Part shown: positions 156-44,466 of the stretch, piece by piece | Layout: each line of letters starts with the position of its first letter | How positions within the stretch are numbered: position 1 is the first letter of the stretch | Assembly (NCBI GenBank): GCA_009993605.1 | Contig: JAACTB010000011.1 | Coordinates: 1 to 64,000, forward strand | DNA: 64,000 bases | Reading direction: 5' to 3' | From: Erythrobacter sp. | GTDB lineage: Bacteria > Pseudomonadota > Alphaproteobacteria > Sphingomonadales > Sphingomonadaceae | Notes under the pieces: generated by a model | What the model was told of the DNA's origin: nothing | Databases searched by the model: none | Seen by the model: only the letters and a program-made list of their open reading frames with translations | Program-made: the position numbers and the translations under genes

Positions 156-1694
156 TCAATAGACGAGCCCCATCGCCCATCCGCCGAGTAGGTAGCAGAA
201 GCCCGTTATCAGCAGAATGCCGACCACGTTGAGCCAGATGCCGCCCTTGGCCATCTGCGCGATCGTGACCGATCCGGTGCCGAACACGATGGCATTGGGC
301 GGGGTTCCGACCGGCAGCATGAAGGCGCAGGTCGCCGCGAGCGCGACCGGGATGAGCAGGCTTATCTGATCCATGCCGATCCCCGCGGCCACCCCGCCCA
401 AAATGGGCACGAAGGTGGCGGCGGTCGCGGTGTTGCTGGTCACTTCGGTGAGGAAGATGGTGAGAGTCACCACCGCTCCCACGAGCAGGATGGCCGGCAG
501 CGCCTCCAGCCCAGCGACCTGCGCGCCGAACCATCCGTCGAGCCCGGTTGCGGCCACCGCGCTAGCTAGACTGAGCCCGCCACCGAACAGCAGCAGCACC
601 CCCCATGGCAGGCCGTCCTCCGCGTCGCGCCAGTCCAGCACCATTTCGTTCCGTCCGCGCGCGGGAATGAGAAACAGGGCGATCCCTGCCGCGATGGCGA
701 TGGCGGTATCGTCCAGATCGCCGATCCAGGGCACGGCGGCAGCGATGCTGGGAATATCGGCGAGGATGCCCGGAACGATCCACAGGAAAGCCGCAGCGCA
801 GAATACGAACAGGACCGCCTTTTCGCCCTGACCCATGGGGCCGAGCTTGCGCACTTCTGCCGCGATCATGTCACGCCCACCGGGAATTTCCGCCAGCGTA
901 AAGCTGTAGAGGAAGCGCGTCATCAGCACCCAGGACACGAGGATGAAGACGAGCGCCAGAGGCGCGCCGATCATCATCCATTCGAGAAAGCCGATATCGC
1001 GCCCCAATTCGTCCGCCGCATATCCCGCGACGATGGCGTTAGGCGGACTGCCGAGAAGCGTGCCCAATCCGCCGATACTGGCCGCCCAGGCGATGGCCAG
1101 CATCAGGCAGACACCGAAACGGCGGATATTCTCATCGGGCAGAGCGGCGATATCTTCGTGGCTCTGCAACGGCGAACCCTCGATGGTGGCGCTCTTTTCG
1201 ACCAGCAAGGCCAGCAGCGACAGCCCGATCGGCAGCATCATCAGCGTGGTCGCCGTGTTCGACACCCACATCGAGAGAAAGCCCGTTGCCAGCATCATGC
1301 CGAGCACGATCCGCCTCGGCTCCGCCCCGACGCGCCGGAGCGTCAGCAGCGCGATGCGGCGATGCAGCTGCCATTTCTCCATCGCGATGGCGATCAGGAA
1401 CCCGCCGAGAAACAGGAAGACGATCGAACTGGCATAAGGCGCCGTCGCCTCTCCCACGGTGATTGCCGTCAGGGCGGGGATCAGCACGATCGGCAGGAGC
1501 GATGTCGCGGCGAGCGGGATCGCTTCCGTCATCCACCAAATCGCCATCAGCGTCGCCACGGCTGCGACGATACGGGCATCGGGGGGCAGTCCCTCCGATC
1601 CGCCAAGTGCCAGCCAGACCAGGATCGCCGCCACCGGTCCCAACACGCGCAAACCCCACAGCAACGCCGCCGATCGCTTCCCGTCTTGAGCCAC
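156..1694 (-). CDS. SLC13/DASS-family sodium:anion (dicarboxylate/sulfate-type) symporter
   Basis: The 512-residue inner-membrane protein has the hydrophobic pattern of the divalent anion:Na+ symporter family, with a dozen or so membrane segments in two inverted halves. The family's paired SNT motifs are visible: MWVSNTATTLMMLPI near residue 140 and TSNTATAATFVPI near residue 415. GTPPNAIVFGTG follows the second and GSPPNAIVAGYA is its counterpart in the first half. Such carriers import succinate, malate, citrate or sulfate; the exact substrate cannot be read here. The start is a GTG at 1694 preceded by GGGAGAG at good spacing. It is divergent from the TonB receptor and ends close to the tRNA fragment. 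Confidence 0.9.
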   Translation of the reverse strand: MAQDGKRSAALLWGLRVLGPVAAILVWLALGGSEGLPPDARIVAAVATLMAIWWMTEAIPLAATSLLPIVLIPALTAITVGEATAPYASSIVFLFLGGFLIAIAMEKWQLHRRIALLTLRRVGAEPRRIVLGMMLATGFLSMWVSNTATTLMMLPIGLSLLALLVEKSATIEGSPLQSHEDIAALPDENIRRFGVCLMLAIAWAASIGGLGTLLGSPPNAIVAGYAADELGRDIGFLEWMMIGAPLALVFILVSWVLMTRFLYSFTLAEIPGGRDMIAAEVRKLGPMGQGEKAVLFVFCAAAFLWIVPGILADIPSIAAAVPWIGDLDDTAIAIAAGIALFLIPARGRNEMVLDWRDAEDGLPWGVLLLFGGGLSLASAVAATGLDGWFGAQVAGLEALPAILLVGAVVTLTIFLTEVTSNTATAATFVPILGGVAAGIGMDQISLLIPVALAATCAFMLPVGTPPNAIVFGTGSVTIAQMAKGGIWLNVVGILLITGFCYLLGGWAMGLVY

Positions 1695-1872
1695 GCATTC
1701 TCTCCCTCACGGCATCTATGCCGCTGCGGCCCAGCCCCGCAAAGCCTTTTCGAAAGCCCGCCATCACCCCGATGCGCGGCCCACGCCTCAACCTCGAAGT
1801 CGTTCGTCCGCGCCAAAAGCCATTCCGGCGAAAGAGTGCTTGCCCCGCGCCGGAGGATCGCTAGAGGGCCGC

Positions 1873-1890
1873 GTTATGTTGTATCATAAG
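1873..1890 (+). promoter_or_regulatory. Zur-like operator overlapping the start codon of the TonB receptor
   Basis: The 18-mer GTTATGTTGTATCATAAG contains the inverted repeat TTATG-N6-CATAA and resembles the ATGTTATAACAT core I recall for zinc-uptake-regulator (Zur) boxes in alphaproteobacteria (10 of 12 core positions). The ATG of the receptor is the one inside the left arm. Given the metal-binding loop of the receptor, zinc repression is a reasonable inference, but one site seen by eye could be chance. Confidence 0.4.
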
Positions 1891-4080
1891 CCCAATCCGC
1901 CGCGCTGTGTCGCATCTTCGCTCGTCGCTCTTGCCTTCTCCCTCGCCGCCGTGCCCGGCCTCGCCCAATCGGCCCCGGACACCGCCGATCCCGACGCGAC
2001 CGGCTCGTCCCGGTCCTCCCAGATCGAAGACGATCTCCACAATCGCAATGTCGATGGCTCCGGCCTGATTGTCGTAACCGCGCCCGGCCTCGAACAGCTC
2101 GACGTTCTTGCCGGGACCTCGCTGGTCGAGGGGCGCGAATTGCAGCGCGAGATGAACGGGCAGATCGGCGAAATCCTCGCAAAGCAGCCGGGCGTGTCCG
2201 CCACCAGCTTCTCGCCCGGTGCCTCGCGCCCGGTGCTGCGCGGCTTCGAAGGCGAGCGGGTCAAGGTGCTGATCGACGGGATCGGCGCGATCGACGTGTC
2301 TAACACCTCCGCCGACCACGCCGTTTCGGTCGAGCCGCTGACTGCCGAGCGGATCGAAATCCTGCGCGGCCCTGCGGTCCTTCTCTATGGAAGCCAGGCC
2401 ATCGGCGGTGCGGTCAACATCATCGACAAGCGCATCCCGACCCGCCGCCTCAACGAACCCTTCCATCTCGACGTCCTGGCCGAAGCCGACACCGCCTACG
2501 ATCTGAGAAGCGGGGCCGCCTCGCTCGATCTGCCGCTGGGCGAGTATTTCGTGGCCCATGTCGACGGGTCGTATCGCAATACCGGTGATTTGGAAGTGCC
2601 CGGCTTCACGCTCTCGCCCGCCTTACGCGCGGACATTCTCGCCGATGTGGCCGAGGAAACCGCCGAAGGTAATCTCGAAGAAGCAGCGGAATTGCAGGAA
2701 GCCGCTGACCAGCGCGGCATCCTCCCCAACAGCTATACCGAAACCTATTCGGTGAACGGTGGCCTCACCCTGTTCGCGGGCGAGAGCAATCTTGGCTTTT
2801 CGGCAGGCTATTATGACAGCACCTATGGTGTTCCGGGCCGTCCGGGCACCGGCCACGCGCATGGCGACGAAGGGGGCGAGGAAGGCGAAGGAGAAGGCGG
2901 CGAAGAGCAGGTCTCGATCGGGCTCAAGCAATTTCGCGCCGACATGCGCGGCGAACTCGCGCTCGGTGACGGCTTCTTCTCGATGCTGCGCACGCGGGTC
3001 GGCTATTCGGACTACACCCACACCGAATTCGAAGGGGACGAGGTCGGCACCGTGTTCGATGTCTCCGGCATCGAAGCGCGTGCGGAGCTGATTCAAAACG
3101 ACAGCGGGCGCCTCGGCGGTACTCTGGGCGCCCAATATTACTACCGCGATTTCGAAGCGATCGGGGACGAGGCCTTCGTTGCGCCGAACCGCACCGATCA
3201 GTTCGCGATCTTCGCGCTCCAGGAATACGATCTCGACTCTTTCCAGATCGAAGGCGCCGCGCGCTACGAAATGGCGAATATCGAATCGGTCCCACTGGGC
3301 GTCGAACGCGATTTCGACCTGTTCTCGGGCGCGCTGTCGCTGGTTTACGAGCCGGGCGGCGACGACCGCCTGCGCATCGGCATCACTGGATCGCGGGCCG
3401 AGCGCGCACCGGGCGGCGAGGAATTGTTCGCCAACGGCCCCCACATCGCCACTCAGGCCTTCGAGATCGGCAATGTCGATCTCACCAAGGAAAGCGCCTG
3501 GGGCCTCGAAGGCTTCGTGCGCGGCGAGGTCGGCCCGGCGACGGTATCAGTCTCGGTGTTCCAGAACTGGTTCGACGACTACATCTTTCTGCAAGCCACC
3601 GGCGCGGAAGAGGACGATCTGCCGGTCTTCCAGTATCTCCAGTCCGATGCCGACTATTTCGGGATCGAAGGAGAGGTGAAACTACCGCTGCTCCAGTCCG
3701 ATCGCTTCACGCTCGGCGCCGATCTGCGCGGATCGTATATCGAGGCCAAGCTCGACGATGGCACCCCGCTGCCGCGCATCCCGCCGTTCAGCGCGCTTGC
3801 GGCGCTCGATGCGGGGTTTGCCGGAATCGACGGGCGGGTCGAGGTGCAGTATTTCGGCGAACAGGACGAGATCGCGCCGTTCGAGACGACCACCGACGAC
3901 TTCACCTTCGTCAACGTCTCGCTGGCCTTCAGCCCGTTGCGCGGAAACGATCTGGTGCGCGTGATGGTGAAGGCGGACAATATCTTCGACGTCACCGGGC
4001 GCCGCCATGCCAGCTTCACCAAGGATTTCGTGCCGCTGGCAGGCCGCAATTTCAAGGTCAGCCTGCTCGCCAGTTTCTGA
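1876..4080 (+). CDS. TonB-dependent outer-membrane receptor, ZnuD-like (probable zinc uptake)
   Basis: A 734-residue TonB-dependent receptor. A signal peptide (hydrophobic VASSLVALAFSLAAV, cleavage near AQS) is followed by a plug domain with SATSFSPGASRPVLRGFEG and VEPLTAERIEILRGPAVLLYG, then a 22-strand-type barrel ending in the aromatic residue F. A long extracellular loop around residue 330 carries His residues followed by an almost purely Glu/Gly stretch (HAHGDEGGEEGEGEGGEE). Such His/acidic loops are typical of ZnuD-type zinc receptors. The ATG at 1876 has GAGGG 7 bases upstream and is preferred over a TTG at 1840. The product should pass a metal ion or chelate across the outer membrane using TonB-ExbBD. 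Confidence 0.85.
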   Translation: MLYHKPNPPRCVASSLVALAFSLAAVPGLAQSAPDTADPDATGSSRSSQIEDDLHNRNVDGSGLIVVTAPGLEQLDVLAGTSLVEGRELQREMNGQIGEILAKQPGVSATSFSPGASRPVLRGFEGERVKVLIDGIGAIDVSNTSADHAVSVEPLTAERIEILRGPAVLLYGSQAIGGAVNIIDKRIPTRRLNEPFHLDVLAEADTAYDLRSGAASLDLPLGEYFVAHVDGSYRNTGDLEVPGFTLSPALRADILADVAEETAEGNLEEAAELQEAADQRGILPNSYTETYSVNGGLTLFAGESNLGFSAGYYDSTYGVPGRPGTGHAHGDEGGEEGEGEGGEEQVSIGLKQFRADMRGELALGDGFFSMLRTRVGYSDYTHTEFEGDEVGTVFDVSGIEARAELIQNDSGRLGGTLGAQYYYRDFEAIGDEAFVAPNRTDQFAIFALQEYDLDSFQIEGAARYEMANIESVPLGVERDFDLFSGALSLVYEPGGDDRLRIGITGSRAERAPGGEELFANGPHIATQAFEIGNVDLTKESAWGLEGFVRGEVGPATVSVSVFQNWFDDYIFLQATGAEEDDLPVFQYLQSDADYFGIEGEVKLPLLQSDRFTLGADLRGSYIEAKLDDGTPLPRIPPFSALAALDAGFAGIDGRVEVQYFGEQDEIAPFETTTDDFTFVNVSLAFSPLRGNDLVRVMVKADNIFDVTGRRHASFTKDFVPLAGRNFKVSLLASF

Positions 4081-14792: not shown

Positions 14793-16268
14793 GTGAGGGC
14801 GCAGATCGAAATCGGCAGGCAGGCGGGCGGGCAAATGGTCCCCGTGGACGTGGAGGAACTCCTCGCCACGCGGCTGCTCGTCCAGGGCAATTCGGGCTCG
14901 GGGAAGTCGCACCTTCTGCGCCGCCTGCTCGAACAGAGCGCGGGGTTGGTCCAGCAGGTGGTGATCGACCCGGAAGGCGATTTCACCAGCCTGGCGGACG
15001 AATTCGGCCATATCGTAATCGATGGCGGGGCGCACACCTCGCGCGAGATCGAGACGCTGGCCGCGCGCATCCGCCAGCACCGCGCCTCGGTCGTGCTGGC
15101 GCTGGACGAGCTGGAGGTCGAGCAGCAGATCCGCTGCGCCGCCCTGTTCCTGACCGCTTTGTTCGATGCCCCGCGCGAGCATTGGTATCCCGCGCTCGTG
15201 GTGGTGGACGAAGCGCAGATGTTCGCGCCCGCCGCCGCTGGCGAGATGGCGGAGGATACGCGGCGCATGACTCTGTCCGCCATGACGAACCTGATGTGCC
15301 GGGGCAGGAAGCGGGGCCTCGCCGGGATCGTCGCGACGCAGCGGCTGGCCAAGCTCGCCAAGAACGTCGCCGCCGAAGCATCGAACTTCCTGATGGGCCG
15401 CACCTTTCTCGACATCGACATGCAGCGCGCCGCCGATCTCCTCGGTATGGACCGCCGGCAGGCCGAACGTATCCGCGATTTGCAGCGCGGCCATTTCCTC
15501 GGCCTCGGCCCCGCGATCAGCCGCAGCCCGGTCGCGGTCGAGATCGGATCGGTGAAGACGGGCGGCAAGAATGCGTCCGAAGGGCTGATGCCGTTACCCG
15601 ATGCGAGCGGGGGCGAATTGGAAGCGCTGCTCCACACCGATCTTGCCCAGGCTGCCGCCGAACCCGCGCCGCCGCCGCGCCCCGCCGCCCCTCCCCGCGC
15701 TTCGGTGGAGATCGAACAAGCGATCGTGGCGAGCACCGTCGTGGAGCGACCGGCACCCAACGATGACGAGGCGCCGGATGCCGCCTCGGCAGCTCCGCCC
15801 CCTTCGCCGGAAGACGCCGACGAAGGGCTCGAGCGGATCGTGCGCGAGCTGGCGATGGAGGATGGCGCGACCTTCCAGTCCACCACGGCGCTGTTCCGCA
15901 ATTTCGCGGTCCGCTGCCGCCAGGCGGGCGTGCCGAGCGCACATGTCGACATGATGCAGTTCCGCCGCCTGTTCGCCTATGCCAGCACCGGTCTCGACCG
16001 GCTGGAAGCGGGCAAGCGCGAAACGATCGAGGAACTCGCACAGGCCGTGCCCGAAGACGTCCTCGCGCCCTATCTCACGCTCGCAGTCAACGCGGCGCTG
16101 GGCCGCACCGCGCCCGACGAGGACGAGCTGGCGCGCGCGTATGGCAGCTCCTCGCCCAGCCGCATCCGCCGCCTGCTCGACCATCTCGAACGGCAGGGCC
16201 TGATCGTGGTGCGCGAGGATTTCGGCGGCGAGCGCACGGTGACGGTGGCAGGGCTGGAGACTGCTTGA
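14793..16268 (+). CDS. HerA/FtsK-like P-loop ATPase (DUF853/DUF87-type ATP-binding protein)
   Basis: The 491-residue protein has Walker [14 protein letters not shown] near residue 40 and Walker [12 protein letters not shown] near residue 140, followed by [19 protein letters not shown], which is the sensor region of HerA-like helicases. A disordered Pro/Ala-rich linker (about residues 285-350) leads to a C-terminal region that looks like a small winged-helix unit ([26 protein letters not shown]). HerA-like proteins move DNA, but some members of this subgroup have no known role. GTG at 14793 is chosen because it keeps an N-terminal beta strand; an ATG at 14835 is possible. Base composition matches its neighbours, so it looks resident. 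Confidence 0.8.
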
Positions 16269-16303: not shown

Positions 16304-17218
16304 CTATCTTCGTGAATGCGGCTGATAAATTTCTTGAAGAGTTGGTATCACTTTCCAACGCGTGTCAGCAGCACGTAAGATGCTCTTAGGCACTGTCCGA
16401 GTTGCATACGGCGTGTGAAACAAATTTTCGAATTCATTTATCGCAAAGTCGTTCGATACGAGACTGTCTGCGGCAAGATGGCAATCCCTGTAGCGCTTGC
16501 CTGAATCGCAACCGCACCACTCGTCTGGCAGGAATTCCTGTCTACGGTAATGTGCACCTACGCCTATTTGCCTCCCCGGCCAGCGGCCTAAGAGCCAGCG
16601 ATGCCAGCTTTTCACCGCCCAAAGGGAATAATGGTCGGCCAGGGGCAAAATTCCGTCATCCGGCGTCCACGCCTTACTTTCTCGAGTAAACGCGCAAATA
16701 GAGGCGTCGGGAAAATTGGTGTGCTTGAGCGGGAACGGCTGGCGCCTGCCGTTTGCTACGCTGAAAGCCCAGGCTTTCGGCCAGATTTCCTTCCTCAATG
16801 GAAGCGCGATGACAAAGTGGGCTTGTGGGCCATCTGACCCCAGAGGTCGGGTTTTGATGACGACCCACAAGCCCTTTTCGTCCTCATAGCTTATAGCTTT
16901 GTAGTGACGAACCAGAAGCCGAAATCCAGTTCCGTAAGCCGCTTCGATGGCAGCGGAGCTGAAGGGCTCGGCTTCACCGGTCGGCCTTGAGCGGGACGAC
17001 GTGGACCGTCGTTTCCGCGATCGGGTTGCGGGTCTGTCCCGGGTATATGTTGAGGGGGCATCGTAAATCACCTCGCTTTCAGTTGGCGGGTTGAGTCCAA
17101 CGAAGCCATCATCGAAAACGAGAGGAGAGGCGCCATGATCAATCGCTCTCCCCAAGTGGGCCAAGCGACTGATAGTGCTTTTGGAAAATGCGGGCTTTCC
17201 ACAGTCTTTCAACAGCAT
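16304..17218 (-). CDS. Orphan E2 (ubiquitin-conjugating enzyme)-like protein with C-terminal SEC-C motif
   Basis: The 304-residue protein is not a standard housekeeping enzyme. Residues 85-215 read like a bacterial E2/UBC-fold domain: strands VVIKTRPLG and HFVIALPLRK, then KHTNFPDASICAFTRESKAW with candidate catalytic Cys175 preceded by His166 and FPD, then WTP and a helix-rich SLWAVKSWHRWLLGRWPG. The H-x(n)-FPDxxxC-x(n)-W...W...RWPG pattern is the one I know from prokaryotic E2 families. A SEC-C zinc motif (CGCDSGKRYRDCH, residues 235-247) follows. The first 80 residues look disordered and basic. AAGGAG lies 8 bases before the ATG. Base composition is visibly AT-richer than the neighbours, suggesting transfer. 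No E1, JAB or ubiquitin-like gene is nearby. Confidence 0.6.
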   Translation of the reverse strand: MLLKDCGKPAFSKSTISRLAHLGRAIDHGASPLVFDDGFVGLNPPTESEVIYDAPSTYTRDRPATRSRKRRSTSSRSRPTGEAEPFSSAAIEAAYGTGFRLLVRHYKAISYEDEKGLWVVIKTRPLGSDGPQAHFVIALPLRKEIWPKAWAFSVANGRRQPFPLKHTNFPDASICAFTRESKAWTPDDGILPLADHYSLWAVKSWHRWLLGRWPGRQIGVGAHYRRQEFLPDEWCGCDSGKRYRDCHLAADSLVSNDFAINEFENLFHTPYATRTVPKSILRAADTRWKVIPTLQEIYQPHSRR

Positions 17219-17456: not shown

Positions 17457-19538
17457 TTACTGACAGGCGAGGCATTCCTCGTAATCGGTCTGTTCGCCCG
17501 CGCCCGCCATCAGCTCGTATTTGGCGGCGTCGGCGGTGTTGTCAGTTTCGACTCCGCCCGCGAAGCCCGCGCGCTGCACGCTCTTGGAACGCAGGTAATA
17601 GAGCGACTTGATGCCCTTCTCCCATGCCTGGAAGTGGAGCATCATCAGGTCCCACTTGTCGACATCGGCGGGGATGAACAAGTTCAGCGACTGCGCCTGA
17701 TCGATGAAGGGCGCACGGTCGGCGGCGAATTCCAAGAGCCAGCGCTGATCGATCTCGAAGCTGGTCTTGTAGGTCGCCTTTTCTTCTGCGCTCAGGAAGT
17801 CGAGATGCTGGACCGATCCGCCCTTTTCGAGGATCGAATTCCACACATTGGTCGAATCCTTGGATTTCTCGCGCAGCAGCTTTTCGAGATACGGGTTCTT
17901 CACCACGAAGCTGCCCGACAGCGTCTTGTGCGTGTAGATATTGGCCGGGATCGGCTCGATGCAGGCGCTGGTGCCGCCGCAGATGATCGAGATCGACGCG
18001 GTCGGCGCGATCGCCATCTTGCAGCTGAAGCGCTCCATCGCACCCATTTCTTCCGCATCCGGGCACGGGCCGCGTTCCTTGGCGAGGACCATGCTGGCCT
18101 CTTCCGCCTTCGCGCTGACGTGTTTGAACATCTTCAGGTTCCAGACCTTGGCCATCGGGCTTTCGAAGCCGATGCCCTTCTGCTGGAGGAAGGAGTGGTA
18201 GCCCATGACGCCGAGGCCCACGCTGCGTTCGCGGCTGGCGGAATATTTGGCGCGCGCCATCTCGTCGGGCGCACGGTCGATATAGTCCTGAAGCACGTTG
18301 TCTAGGAAGCGCATCACATCCTCGATGAACTGCTTGTCGCCGTTCCACTCGTCCCACTTTTCGAGGTTGAGCGAGCTGAGGCAGCAGACCGCGGTGCGAT
18401 CGTTGCCGAGATGGTCGCGGCCGGTCGGCAGCGTGATTTCCGAACACAGGTTCGAGGTCGAGACCTTGAGGCCGAGATCGCGGTGATGCTTGGGCATCAT
18501 CCGGTTCACCGTGTCGGAGAAGACGATATAGGGCTCGCCCGTCGCGAGGCGGGTTTCGACCAGCTTCTGGAACAGCGAACGCGCATCCACGGTCTTGCGG
18601 ACCGATCCGTCCTTGGGGCTGACGAGATCGAAGGATTCGCCCGCACGGACGGCTTCCATGAATTCGTCGGTCAGCAGCACGCCGTGATGCAGGTTCAACG
18701 CCTTGCGGTTGAAATCGCCAGACGGTTTGCGGATTTCGAGGAATTCCTCGATCTCGGGGTGCGACACGTCGAGATAGCAGGCGGCCGAGCCGCGCCGCAG
18801 CGAGCCCTGCGAAATCGCGAGGGTCAGCGAATCCATCACGCGCACGAAGGGGATGATCCCGCTGGTCTTGCCGTTCAAGCCCACCGGCTCGCCGATGCCG
18901 CGCACTTGGCCCCAATAGGTGCCGATGCCGCCGCCGCGCGAAGCCAGCCAGACGTTCTCGTTCCAGGTGCCGACGATTCCTTCGAGGCTGTCCTCGACGC
19001 TGTTCAAATAGCACGAGATCGGCAGGCCGCGATTGGTGCCGCCGTTCGACAGCACGGGCGTGGCGGGCATGAACCACAGCTTCGAGATCGCGTCGTAGAG
19101 CCGCTGGGCGTGATCCTGATCGTCGGCATAGGCATCCGCCACGCGGGCGAACAGGTCTTGGAAATCCTCGCCGGGAAGCAGGTAACGGTCGATCAGCGTT
19201 TCCTTGCCGAATTCGGTCAGCAGCGCATCGCGGCTGCTGTCGGTGACGACATCGAAGCGGCGGTCGTTGATCTTCTTGGAATCATCGGCAGGCGCCGCCG
19301 AGGCCTTCACCGCTTCCATCATCGCGCCGGCGAGCGCGGCATCGGCCTTTTCGGAGATCGCCGATTCGCTCACCAGCTCGTCGCTGCCGCTGTCGCTTGC
19401 CTGCATGTCGATTGCCTTTCCGCCCGTTTGTTCGGGCGCTTTCTTGGGCGCGGGGCTGGAGGCGGGCGCGTCCGAGACAGTCGCCGTGTCGTCCTGCGTC
19501 ATGTCCAGTTCCATCGCGTCCTCGTTCCTGAAATCCAT
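17457..19538 (-). CDS. nrdA: Ribonucleoside-diphosphate reductase (class I) large subunit
   Basis: The catalytic subunit reduces ribonucleotides for DNA synthesis together with a small radical subunit. The 693-residue protein has the active-site LPISCYLNSVEDS, STSNLCSEITLP (Asn, Cys, Glu), the second redox Cys in TAVCCLSSLNL, and the C-terminal shuttle pair in EECLACQ. The first 85 or so residues are low-complexity (PASSPAPKKAPEQ) and show no ATP-cone, which normally provides overall activity control by dATP. The chosen ATG at 19538 has AGGACGAG upstream; a longer frame reaches back to 19721 but looks non-coding. The small-subunit gene nrdB is not adjacent. Confidence 0.92.
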   Translation of the reverse strand: MDFRNEDAMELDMTQDDTATVSDAPASSPAPKKAPEQTGGKAIDMQASDSGSDELVSESAISEKADAALAGAMMEAVKASAAPADDSKKINDRRFDVVTDSSRDALLTEFGKETLIDRYLLPGEDFQDLFARVADAYADDQDHAQRLYDAISKLWFMPATPVLSNGGTNRGLPISCYLNSVEDSLEGIVGTWNENVWLASRGGGIGTYWGQVRGIGEPVGLNGKTSGIIPFVRVMDSLTLAISQGSLRRGSAACYLDVSHPEIEEFLEIRKPSGDFNRKALNLHHGVLLTDEFMEAVRAGESFDLVSPKDGSVRKTVDARSLFQKLVETRLATGEPYIVFSDTVNRMMPKHHRDLGLKVSTSNLCSEITLPTGRDHLGNDRTAVCCLSSLNLEKWDEWNGDKQFIEDVMRFLDNVLQDYIDRAPDEMARAKYSASRERSVGLGVMGYHSFLQQKGIGFESPMAKVWNLKMFKHVSAKAEEASMVLAKERGPCPDAEEMGAMERFSCKMAIAPTASISIICGGTSACIEPIPANIYTHKTLSGSFVVKNPYLEKLLREKSKDSTNVWNSILEKGGSVQHLDFLSAEEKATYKTSFEIDQRWLLEFAADRAPFIDQAQSLNLFIPADVDKWDLMMLHFQAWEKGIKSLYYLRSKSVQRAGFAGGVETDNTADAAKYELMAGAGEQTDYEECLACQ

Positions 19539-19935
19539 CGCTCGTCCTCGCCCTTCGTCTCGTGTCGCGTCCGATCGTGCGTGAGCCGATGTTCCGCATG
19601 TGTTCGATTCGGCGAGCCACACCCGCCTAGCAATATTCGAAGGCCTTAGGGGCATGAAACTTATCCCCTTTTTTGCCCACAGGGCCCAACCATGACCGAA
19701 CGGGAACGCCGCCCGCCCCATATGGGTCCGGCGGCGGCAATCGCTAGGTCTAGTGGGTCCCCCCGGGTGCCCGACTACCAGATACTGAATCAGACCGGGT
19801 CGGGGCGCAAGAGGGTGAAGAGGGATTTAACGTGTCCCGGACCCGCTGGACGGCGGTGTGTCGTCCGACTGCAACGCAGCGACGCGTGGACCAAGCTGGA
19901 CTTGTCGTCAGCGCAAGAGCGAAAATGAATCCGTG
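19539..19935. other. Intergenic region upstream of nrdA, no recognised gene
   Basis: The nearly 400 bases before nrdA and after the hydrolase terminator hold no convincing protein gene; a 78-codon open frame on the + strand (19692-19928) lacks a ribosome-binding site and resembles nothing known. A perfect 10-bp palindrome, CCCATATGGG, lies at 19717-19726. I could not find a convincing pair of NrdR boxes, the expected regulator sites for this gene. The nrdA promoter must be here. Confidence 0.5.
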
Positions 19936-40988: not shown

Positions 40989-42596
40989 CTACATCCTGAA
41001 CACGCCGAAGGCCGGGCGTTCGGCGATCGGGGCTTCGAGGCTGGCGGCGAGTGCGAGGCCGAGGACGTCGCGGGTCTGGGCCGGGTCGATCACGCCATCG
41101 TCCCACAGGCGGGCGGTGGCGTAATAGGGATTGCCCTCGTCCTCGTATTTCTGGCGGATCGGGGCCTTGAAGGCTTCGGCCTCTTCCTCGCTCCAGCTGT
41201 CGGCGTCGCGGTGGACGGTGGCGAGAACGCTTGCCGCCTGTTCGCCGCCCATCACCGAAATGCGCGCATTGGGCCAGGTGAAGAGGAAACGCGGGGAATA
41301 GGCGCGGCCGCACATGCCGTAATTGCCCGCGCCGAACGATCCGCCGATGACGACGGTCAGCTTGGGCACGGTCGCGGTGGCAACCGCAGTCACCAGCTTG
41401 GCGCCATGCTTGGCGATGCCTTCCGCTTCGTATTTCCCACCGACCATGAAGCCGCTGATATTCTGAAGGAACAGCAGCGGGATGCGGCGCTGGCAGGCGA
41501 GCTCGATGAAATGCGCGCCCTTCTGCGCGCTCTCGCTGAACAGCACGCCGTTATTGGCCAGAATCGCGACCGGCATTCCCCAGACATGCGCGAAGCCGCA
41601 GACAAGGGTGCTTCCATACTGTGCCTTGAACTCGTGGAACTCGCTGCCGTCGACGAGCCGCGCGATGACCTCGTGCACATCATAGGGCGCGCGCACGTCC
41701 TCGGGGATAAGGGCGTAGAGGTCTTCCGCATCGAATTTGGGCGCGCGCGGTTCCTTGAACGCGACATCCTTTGCCGCCGCTGTATTGGCGCCGAGATGCG
41801 ACACGATATCGCGCACGATGGTAAGCGCGTGTTCGTCGTTCTCGGCGAGGTGATCGACCACGCCGCTCTTCTTCGCGTGGAGGTCCCCGCCGCCAAGGTC
41901 TTCGGCGCTGATCTCTTCGCCCGTCGCGGCCTTTACCAAAGGCGGCCCGGCCAGGAAGATCGTGCCCTGTTCGCGCACGATCACCGTCTCGTCGCTCATC
42001 GCGGGCACATAGGCCCCGCCCGCCGTACACGATCCCATGACGCAGGCGATCTGCGGAATGCCGAGCGCGGACATATTGGCCTGGTTGAAGAAGATGCGCC
42101 CGAAATGGTCGCGGTCGGGGAAAACCTCGGCCTGATAGGGCAGGTTCGCGCCGCCGCTGTCGACGAGATAGATGCAGGGCAGGCGGTTCTGTTCGGCGAT
42201 CTCCTGCGCGCGGAGATGCTTCTTGACCGTCATCGGGTAATAGCTGCCGCCCTTCACCGTCGGATCGTTGCAGACGATCATCACCTGCCGCCCGGAAACG
42301 CGCCCGATCCCGCAGATCATCGAGGCGCCGGACACATCGCCCTCATACATCCCGTTCGCGGCCAGTTGCCCGATTTCGAGGAAGGGCGAGCCGGGATCGA
42401 GCAGCCGCTCGACGCGCTCGCGCGGAAGCAGCTTGCCGCGCGAGACATGCCGCTCGCGATGCCGTTCGGACCCGCCAAGAGCCGCTTCGGCGACCTTGGC
42501 GCGCAGGTCTTCGGCGAGCGACCGGTTGTGATCGAAGCGCGCCTTCGCATCGGGCGCCTCACGGTCGAGCTTGGTGGTGAGAGTGGGTGCGGTCAT
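40989..42596 (-). CDS. mccB: Methylcrotonyl-CoA carboxylase beta subunit
   Basis: The carboxyltransferase half of 3-methylcrotonyl-CoA carboxylase in leucine breakdown. The 535-residue protein has [60 protein letters not shown] and the second-half block [20 protein letters not shown] with [13 protein letters not shown]. The MCC-type signature ([11 protein letters not shown]) separates it from propionyl-CoA carboxylase. It lies after an isovaleryl-CoA dehydrogenase gene in the same direction, which supports the assignment, with a methyltransferase gene between them. The biotin subunit gene is not in the window. Confidence 0.93.
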
Positions 42597-43297
42597 GCCC
42601 CATCCTTTCCGAGCGATTTGGATTGCAGGCGAGTGTTTTCTTCGCGCCCCATAACGGTGGGAAGCGGTTCGCTTCTCTCGCCACGCTTATCGCGTTTCCT
42701 GAATTTGCTTTGATATTCCCGGCGTTGCTTCGTCACTTCATAGAGAACAATGCCCGAAGATGTAGCTAAATTCAGACTTTCGATTATTCCAAACATCGGG
42801 ATGGCCAAACAAGCATCGCTTCGCTCCACGGCACGATCGCTGATGCCGCGTTTTTCGTTACCGAACCAGACAGCGAGCTTAGCGTGCTCCGTAAAATCGC
42901 CTTCGTGAAGCCAGATGTTGGTCTGCCCCTTTAAATGCGGAGAGGTCACCACGGAGTGAAAATTGTTTCGCTCCAGATGATCGAAGCAATCATCGGTACT
43001 GTCGAAACGCTTCACGAAACTCCATTTGACAGCGGAAACCGAGGTGGCGGAAAGTGACCGCTGCTCGCGCATTTCCTGCCAATCATCCGGAAGGGCGCGC
43101 CTCGGATCAACCACATAGATTTTTTCGCAGCCAAGCGCGTTGACGTTGCGGATGACCGTGCCGATGTTTTTAATGTCGGACGGTGCTTCGATCACCGCGA
43201 TAAGGTTCTTACACACGAACGGCTTGATGGCATTCGCCCGATTTCGAACCGAAGGCTTGGACTTCTTGCGTACCGCTTCTCCTGCAACGACCGGCAT
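42593..43297 (-). CDS. TrmH-family (SPOUT) RNA 2'-O-methyltransferase
   Basis: The 234-residue protein has the three SPOUT motifs: [16 protein letters not shown] (motif 1), [13 protein letters not shown] (motif 2) and [23 protein letters not shown] (motif 3 knot). It transfers a methyl group from SAM to a ribose 2'-OH in tRNA or rRNA; the target position cannot be told. It sits inside the ivd-mccB transcript: its ATG overlaps the ivd TAA by one base, and its TGA overlaps the mccB ATG as ATGA. Its codon use is visibly AT-richer than both neighbours. The C-terminal 45 residues are basic and variable. Confidence 0.88.
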
Positions 43298-44466
43298 TAC
43301 CCAGCCGCCCCGATCAGTTCGCGGCCGATCAGCATCCGCCTGATCTCGTTCGTGCCCGCGCCGATGTCGAGCAGCTTGGCATCGCGCATATAGCGTTCGA
43401 CCGGCCAGTCGAGCGTATAGCCCGCCCCGCCCAGCGCCTGGACGCTTTCGGCGGCCACGCGGAAGGCGTTCTCGCTCGCCAGCAGGATCGCGCCCGCCGC
43501 ATCGAAGCGCGTGGTCTTTTCCGCGTCGCAGTTCTTGGCGACTGCGTAGGTATAAGCGCGTGCCGACTGGAGCGCGACATACATGTCCGCGACCTTGGCC
43601 TGCATCAGTTGGAAGCTGCCGAGCGGTTTCCCGAACTGGGTGCGTTCGCGCAGGTATGGGATCACCGTGTCGAGGCAGGCCTGCATCACGCCCAATTGCA
43701 ATCCGGCGAGCACCACGCGCTCGTAATCGAGCCCGCTCATCAACACGCCGACGCCGCCGTTTTCCGGGCCCATCACGTTTGCGTCCGGCACGAAGCAATC
43801 GTCGAACACCAGCTCGCTCGTCGGCGAGCCGCGCATCCCGACCTTTTCGATCTTCTGCCCGATCGAGAAGCCTTCGAAATCCTTTTCGATCAGGAAGGTG
43901 GTGATGCCCCGGCTGCCCGCGTCCGGGTTGGTTTTGCCGTAGACGACCAGCGTATCGGCATAGGGCGCGTTGGTGATCCAGAACTTGGTGCCGTTGAGCA
44001 CGTAACCGCCATCGACCTTTTCGGCCTTCATCTTCATCGAGACGACGTCCGATCCCGCGCTCGCCTCGCTCATCGCCAGCGATCCGACATGTTCGCCGCT
44101 GATCAGCTTGGGCAGATATTTCGCCTTCTGCTCTTCATTGCCCCAGCGCGCGATCTGGTTGATGCAGAGATTGGAATGGGCGCCGTAGCTCAATCCGACA
44201 GAAGCGCTCGCCCGGCTGACCTCCTCGACCGCGATGACATGTTCGAGATAGCCGAGGCCTAATCCGCCATCTGCCTCGCTCACCGTGATCCCGTGCAGGC
44301 CCAGCTCGCCCATCGCCTGCCAGAGATCCTCGCGCGGAAACCAATCCTCGCGATCGACCTTCTCGGCCAGCGGCGCGATCTGTTCGTCCGCGAAGCGCGC
44401 GACGGTGTCGCGGATCATCTCGCCGCTTTCGCCGAGCTGGAAATCGAAATCGGGGGTGGCGCGCAT
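43297..44466 (-). CDS. ivd: Isovaleryl-CoA dehydrogenase
   Basis: The FAD enzyme oxidises isovaleryl-CoA to 3-methylcrotonyl-CoA in leucine degradation. The 389-residue protein has ACAD motifs YGAHSNLCINQI, LAMSEASAGSDVVSM, FWITNAPYADTLVVYGKT, and RDAKLLDIGAGTNEIRRMLIGRE. A Glu in GLDYERVVLAG is at the catalytic place typical of isovaleryl-CoA dehydrogenases rather than short-chain enzymes. GGAGAG lies five bases before the ATG. It starts a leftward operon with a TrmH-type gene and mccB and is divergent from the HWE kinase. Confidence 0.92.
   Translation of the reverse strand: MRATPDFDFQLGESGEMIRDTVARFADEQIAPLAEKVDREDWFPREDLWQAMGELGLHGITVSEADGGLGLGYLEHVIAVEEVSRASASVGLSYGAHSNLCINQIARWGNEEQKAKYLPKLISGEHVGSLAMSEASAGSDVVSMKMKAEKVDGGYVLNGTKFWITNAPYADTLVVYGKTNPDAGSRGITTFLIEKDFEGFSIGQKIEKVGMRGSPTSELVFDDCFVPDANVMGPENGGVGVLMSGLDYERVVLAGLQLGVMQACLDTVIPYLRERTQFGKPLGSFQLMQAKVADMYVALQSARAYTYAVAKNCDAEKTTRFDAAGAILLASENAFRVAAESVQALGGAGYTLDWPVERYMRDAKLLDIGAGTNEIRRMLIGRELIGAAG

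Follow-up and report, generated by a model that had tools for sequence, protein, structure and literature searches.

An E2-like gene of Erythrobacter sp. and a small conserved gene nested in its +1 frame

What does an E2-like protein do in a bacterium when no E1 gene lies beside it, and is it really alone? The question is raised by a 64,000-nucleotide stretch of Erythrobacter sp. (contig JAACTB010000011.1, positions 1 to 64,000; the window below), in which a minus-strand gene at 16304..17218 encodes a protein with a predicted ubiquitin-conjugating (UBC)-like domain and a putative SEC-C-type zinc motif. The initial annotation took it for a plain orphan and missed the further conserved gene that it contains in the +1 frame. 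The locus is read here, with a probability of about 0.5, as an accessory two-product gene, coding for an E1-independent E2-like protein together with a built-in nested partner, and inducible by DNA damage or phage.

A second gene within the E2-like gene

The overlapping genes and their start sites are as follows.

16304..17218, minus strand: gene of the E2-like/SEC-C protein, frame 0, 304 aa (from reading of the open reading frame (ORF) and from relatives)
17224, minus strand: alternative GTG start of the same gene, giving 306 aa (the ATG start is at 17218)
16891..17061, minus strand: nested gene, +1 frame, 56 aa and stop, within the stretch of the E2-like gene that encodes the linker (from conservation, start site, and profile matches)
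17070..17074, minus strand: GAGGT, a Shine-Dalgarno-like site ahead of the nested ATG (from the sequence)

On the plus strand, stops occur all along the frame over 16304..17218, which places the gene on the minus strand. The protein has the 304 residues, the motifs KHTNFPDASIC (with Cys175), WTP, and RWPG, and the zinc-motif sequence CGCDSGKRYRDCH just as first described. Its ORF is not a product of chance, because 9 of the 397 genomes searched from the family, counting the window's own, contain relatives, and relatives also lie at 65 loci of the genome collection, which was searched with an alignment of 12 proteins as the query.

Three-frame translation of the first loci revealed a small conserved +1-frame ORF that overlaps the linker. 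With three plasmids that carry a relative, the set comprises 68 loci. Fourteen were set aside, namely ten near-duplicates and four loci (L057, L058, L082, and L085) with the E2 frame cut, split, or decayed; in L058 a break near the linker leaves the two halves out of frame with each other, and L082 is broken within the UBC domain. The nested gene is in the +1 frame in 55/55 sequences (54 loci and the window), as judged with a profile that most of the same sequences went into. It is visible by eye also in L057, L058, and L082 but not in the decayed L085. Examples of the nested protein are MSNKDREDPKPDHGKGPPDGKGRPTDHGRPVEPHRSSAQVFVKTTKQN (L033) and MPPQHIPGTDPQPDRGNDGPRRPAQGRPVKPSPSAPLPSKRLTELDFGFWFVTTKL (window). 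Over the 397 genomes, the nested-protein profile matched 8 of the 9 carriers at E ≤ 1.5e-10, and matches elsewhere were at 1.4e-4 or worse. Three carriers (G227, G229, and G285) gave strong matches though they are outside the profile. Genome G009 (locus L004) has the E2-like gene without a profile match, and a divergent nested gene was seen there by eye.

Coding tests were computed on 54 sequences, window included and L032, with no start assigned, left out. Mismatches at E2-codon positions 1, 2, and 3 are 0.48, 0.16, and 0.20 in the overlap and 0.28, 0.23, and 0.59 downstream of it (49 pairs with 30–40% downstream divergence), and the other divergence bins (19, 19, and 1037 pairs) have the same shift. 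The position varying freely in the overlap is the third position of the nested frame. Over the same codons, the nested frame has a mean identity of 0.49 versus 0.28 for the E2 frame, and it is the higher one in 1421 of 1431 (not independent) pairs. A Shine-Dalgarno-like 4-mer precedes the nested ATG by 5–16 nt in 52/54 loci; among 850 other ATGs within these ORFs, 86 have one. The E2 frame is open in 54/54, a count flattered by the exclusion of broken loci; when shuffled with the nested codons kept, it would remain open at a mean rate of 0.21 per locus. Stops interrupt the third frame in 42/54 loci. The nested gene is present and under selection, and the E2 frame is likewise under selection.

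One result weighs against a nested gene and for the frame as an artefact of composition or a trace of RNA structure. An open +1 frame of such length is not rare by codon permutation (median p 0.42, window 0.39); openness is not significant, so it is conservation, start sites, and profile matches that support the nested gene. The artefact is nevertheless hardly credible given the shifted codon periodicity, the start sites, and the profile matches confined to carriers, above the gap between 1.5e-10 and 1.4e-4; no known RNA was matched in Rfam in the window stretch either. Very unlikely, too, is a programmed frameshift that would join the N-terminal helix and the nested tail in a short product, or a leader-like regulator of E2 translation. 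Conservation of the N-terminal part in frame 0 just ahead of the overlap would suit a frameshift, but the ATG and its Shine-Dalgarno-like site are at the same place in 52/54, and conservation at the amino acid level spans the whole small ORF. Also, in 8/54 loci, window included, there are just one or two codons between a +1 stop and the nested ATG, so that a frameshift would have little space.

Public annotation obscures the pair. On an R. etli plasmid (L011, 7668-8651), the nested gene is annotated (WP_157700430.1) and the E2-like gene is shortened to its last 155 residues (WP_157700429.1), while neither gene is among the entries listed for a Sulfitobacter plasmid in PLSDB. The nested consensus gave no match when searched against plasmids, probably due to the low-complexity filter, since both of these plasmids contain the frame.

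The E2-like protein and the nested protein

Within the E2-like protein, four parts were located.

17138..17182, minus strand: N-terminal helix, residues 13-27 (structure model; the frame-0 N-terminal part is also in relatives)
16574..16963, minus strand: UBC-like domain, about residues 86-215 (model and structural re-alignment; limits approximate)
16694..16696, minus strand: codon of Cys175, the candidate catalytic residue after HTN166-168 (invariant in 47/47)
16469..16522, minus strand: SEC-C-type motif, residues 233-250 (below the Pfam cut-off)

The structure model, with a predicted local distance difference test (pLDDT) score of 86, has a UBC-like fold. Foldseek by itself gave no match below E 0.001 for it, and searches of PDB sequences found nothing significant. 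After structural re-alignment, rows 1-15 are UBC, UEV, or RWD folds, with UEV and RWD among the best; Knl1, one of the re-aligned structures, is counted among these folds. The best match is the CBASS (cyclic-oligonucleotide-based antiphage signalling system) E2 of the Serratia marcescens CdnG-E2 complex (PDB 8yjy/8hsb), with 15% identity in the structural alignment. The motif HTN-x6-C, with threonine in place of the HPN proline, is in 55/55 sequences, and 25 columns are invariant among 47 aligned proteins, including H166, T167, N168, C175, W184, C235, C237, and C246. The initial annotation had proposed a UBC-type fold with Cys175 as candidate catalytic residue and had named a model lacking that fold, or homologues lacking that cysteine, as speaking against it; the fold is predicted and the cysteine is conserved throughout.

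The Pfam Prok-E2 families matched 0/47 members at E ≤ 0.01 and did not match the window protein by itself, which has no NCBIfam match either. For SEC-C (PF02810), the window protein scores 11.8 bits versus the Pfam cut-off of 20.4, and only 3/47 members match at E ≤ 0.01. The cysteine pattern of the zinc motif claimed earlier, C-x-C-x(5-8)-[YF]-x2-C-[CH], is nevertheless kept in 55/55 sequences. The SEC-C part may bind the target, as the initial annotation suggested. The PADLOC 'E2' models match the window protein weakly, in the SEC-C part only.

The UEV and RWD folds among the best matches, together with the missing Pfam E2 family and the lack of E1, ubiquitin-like, and JAB genes around the window gene, would agree with a non-catalytic scaffold, in which a UEV/RWD-like domain with a structural cysteine binds the nested protein as its ligand. 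This explanation is considered unlikely, as Cys175 and HTN are invariant and the closest structure is a CBASS E2.

Pro, Gly, Asp, and Lys/Arg are abundant in the nested protein, as is His in several betaproteobacteria; the C-terminus is variable. Its model is mostly coil (pLDDT 68.5; predicted template modelling score, pTM, 0.22), and Foldseek matched nothing in PDB to it at E ≤ 10. No family was matched by the four nested proteins tested in Pfam or by the 48 tested in NCBIfam, so it is without known relative in the libraries searched. A beta-grasp (ubiquitin-like) modifier was rejected on the coil, the variable C-terminus, and the absent Foldseek match, a low-confidence model being weak evidence alone. 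Pup, the actinobacterial modifier, is small and unfolded, as the nested protein appears to be; unlike Pup, the nested protein has no conserved C-terminal GGQ/GGE and is overprinted on its putative enzyme. Nested proteins of L055, L066, L076, L078, L080, and L082 are unusually His-rich and metal-binding-like.

Spread, neighbours, and regulators

The E2-like gene is an accessory gene because it is present in only 9/397 genomes of the family. The 65 loci are mainly from alphaproteobacteria, but also from beta-, gamma-, and deltaproteobacteria and from one metagenome-assembled genome labelled Flavobacteriales. In a phylum sample the gene is rare: 2 of 398 genomes match, one being the window itself and the other a weak match of 25 residues. 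Thalassovita, Maritimibacter, Pseudodonghicola, and Shimia (L039, L040, L041, and L047) share a cassette of some 4 kb that is identical in every 200-nt sample despite unrelated flanks; on this sequence evidence it was recently transferred among the four genera. A phage origin was rejected, as the E2-like gene has no match in phage records or in viral contigs.

As noted at first, base composition differs from both neighbours, with 54.4% G+C in the gene versus 69.4% at 15000-16268 and 62.1% in nrdA (64.8% in the whole window). A G+C content as low as the gene's recurs in a single one of 631 segments of 915 nt (step 100 nt), perhaps one that overlaps the gene itself. A second AT-richer dip is at 42001-43500 of the window (57.7% G+C at 42501-43500).

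17457..19721, minus strand: nrdA-type ribonucleotide reductase gene, upstream neighbour and context outside the module (named by reading)

The other neighbour reads as a HerA/FtsK-like ATPase. Neither is an E1, JAB, or ubiquitin-like gene (neighbours named by reading), so the absence of adjacent partners claimed earlier holds. Loci L021, L022, and L025 have the E2-like gene behind nrdA, as in the window. In 11/11 genus mates with the same nrdA, no relative follows nrdA within 1.5 kb (0.5 kb once), and the place is filled by different DNA (L112-L123), making it a variable spot.

The initial annotation had alternatively suggested a partner system elsewhere in the genome. Two ThiF-family proteins are encoded in the window's genome; the other carriers have one (7/8) or two (1/8). 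With just one ThiF protein in most carriers, it is unlikely that a dedicated E1 is generally needed. In the window's genome, one of the two, lying behind the end of a CD-NTase-like gene, reads as an E2-E1 fusion of the CBASS type, and a type II CBASS is probable there from the sequence. The fusion, of Cap2 type by reading, has 668 aa and is at 1246-3252 on the minus strand of L089 (contig C4; also in L091). A dedicated E1 elsewhere was rejected on these two grounds. The E2-like protein may use a housekeeping ThiF/MoeB-type protein.

Of 162 picked neighbour proteins of the relatives, 117 were scanned (loci after L070 and three proteins of L057 were left out). Among the matches listed are GajB (2, from the near-identical L010 and L050), Fic (3), HipA (2), DruA (1), and phage integrase (6); CD-NTase is not among them, and as the listing is incomplete, its absence proves nothing. 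In the plasmid-like L010 and L050, the Gabija-type GajB helicase gene is a few kb downstream. In related sphingomonads (L031, L042, L049, and L075), a conserved protein of 239 aa is encoded directly downstream, at about +1040 from the E2-like ORF; it includes a TIR-like stretch, named by reading.

The claim of a stand-alone factor gave way at the related loci. Eleven near-duplicate or broken loci were removed; in 47 of the remaining 57, which still include some close pairs, a divergent regulator is directly upstream. It has HTH_3 (helix-turn-helix) and Peptidase_M78 domains in 24 loci (by the gene calls of this analysis, fused in 21 of them and split in the other 3) and is of WYL type in 10 (WYL in 10/10 proteins); in 13 loci the peptidase and HTH genes are separate, with Peptidase_M78 matched in 13 proteins and HTH in 12. 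The ten loci outside these classes are L021, L022, L023, L025, L026, L028, L057, L076, L083, and L084. The first five form the clade of the window, which has no such regulator itself; one M78 match is elsewhere in its genome, not adjacent to the E2-like gene. L076 has an apparent HTH and M78 pair in opposite orientation, by eye. Before the E2 gene of the 24 HTH_3 and M78 loci, a GTGC...CAC repeat by TTGACAC occurs in 19/24 and TGTGC...ACAG..CGCAC in 17/24, counts that are descriptive, as the patterns were written after viewing 20 of the loci. These patterns are absent elsewhere in the 296 kb of loci and in the window, and no promoter-like site was detected before the window's gene.

CapW and CapH+CapP are reported in PMC13373217 to regulate neighbouring immune operons in response to DNA damage, with one or the other adjoining 219 of 544 Bub operons; PMC9122588 describes CapW binding to palindromes that cover the -10 sites in CBASS promoters. 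The related loci have in common with them the HTH and Peptidase_M78 or WYL domains and the divergent position directly upstream, so by their domain types the regulators would act alike. Unlike in the known settings, their neighbour here is an E2-like gene that contains a nested one, and the window's clade is without them. Because regulators of these types accompany most relatives, expression upon DNA damage or phage attack is probable by analogy.

Overlapping genes, tight co-inheritance, HTH and M78 regulators, and a mobile, patchy spread would also fit a toxin-antitoxin-like pair, in which one product is toxic and is kept in check by the other, HTH/M78 or WYL adding control and no conjugation taking place. 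That is an improbable alternative: the invariant, catalytic-type HTN-x6-C would be needless in a mere binding partner.

A putative two-product module

In the accessory two-product gene preferred here, frame 0 would give an E2-like protein with an N-terminal helix, a flexible linker, the UBC-like domain with HTN...Cys, and the SEC-C-type zinc motif. The linker-coding DNA would also give, from its own start site in the +1 frame, a small unfolded protein. In most relatives the pair would be under the divergent HTH and M78 or WYL regulator and made upon DNA damage or phage attack. Short type II CBASS E2 works without a dedicated E1, and on this model the E2-like protein would do likewise, with the nested protein in place of the CD-NTase. 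The nested protein would most likely be a chain loaded on Cys175 or attached, or else a restraining piece. We infer the induction, the E1 independence, and every chemical step.

The short type II CBASS E2 is thus closest by structure, but the window gene differs from that system in having no adjacent CD-NTase and in having the nested gene, the N-terminal helix, and the long linker. Bil (bacterial ISG15-like) and Bub (bacterial ubiquitination-like) operons share the E2-like protein, whereas the window has no adjacent E1, ubiquitin-like, or JAB gene, and the small protein is mostly coil rather than beta-grasp. Prokaryotic E2 families of operon types 6a-6e, which carry E1 and JAB according to Iyer, Burroughs and Aravind 2006 (PMC1779556), have the UBC-like domain and the conserved cysteine in common with it; it differs in the missing E1 and JAB and in the lack of a Pfam Prok-E2 match. 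No description of this E2-like family or of the nested gene was found in open papers.

A nested gene held in one frame over several proteobacterial classes is unusual, and the two frames here lend themselves to separate testing. There are hints of an inducible two-protein module of defence or damage response. A more specific proposal, E1-independent conjugation in stress response or phage defence with an unfolded modifier encoded in an alternative frame inside its own enzyme's gene, is doubtful and is offered tentatively. The preferred reading would link a new E1-less E2-like protein to the kinds of regulator that switch immune operons in response to DNA damage, and would offer a compact, tractable pair for studying how E2-type enzymes act, or are kept under control, in the absence of E1.
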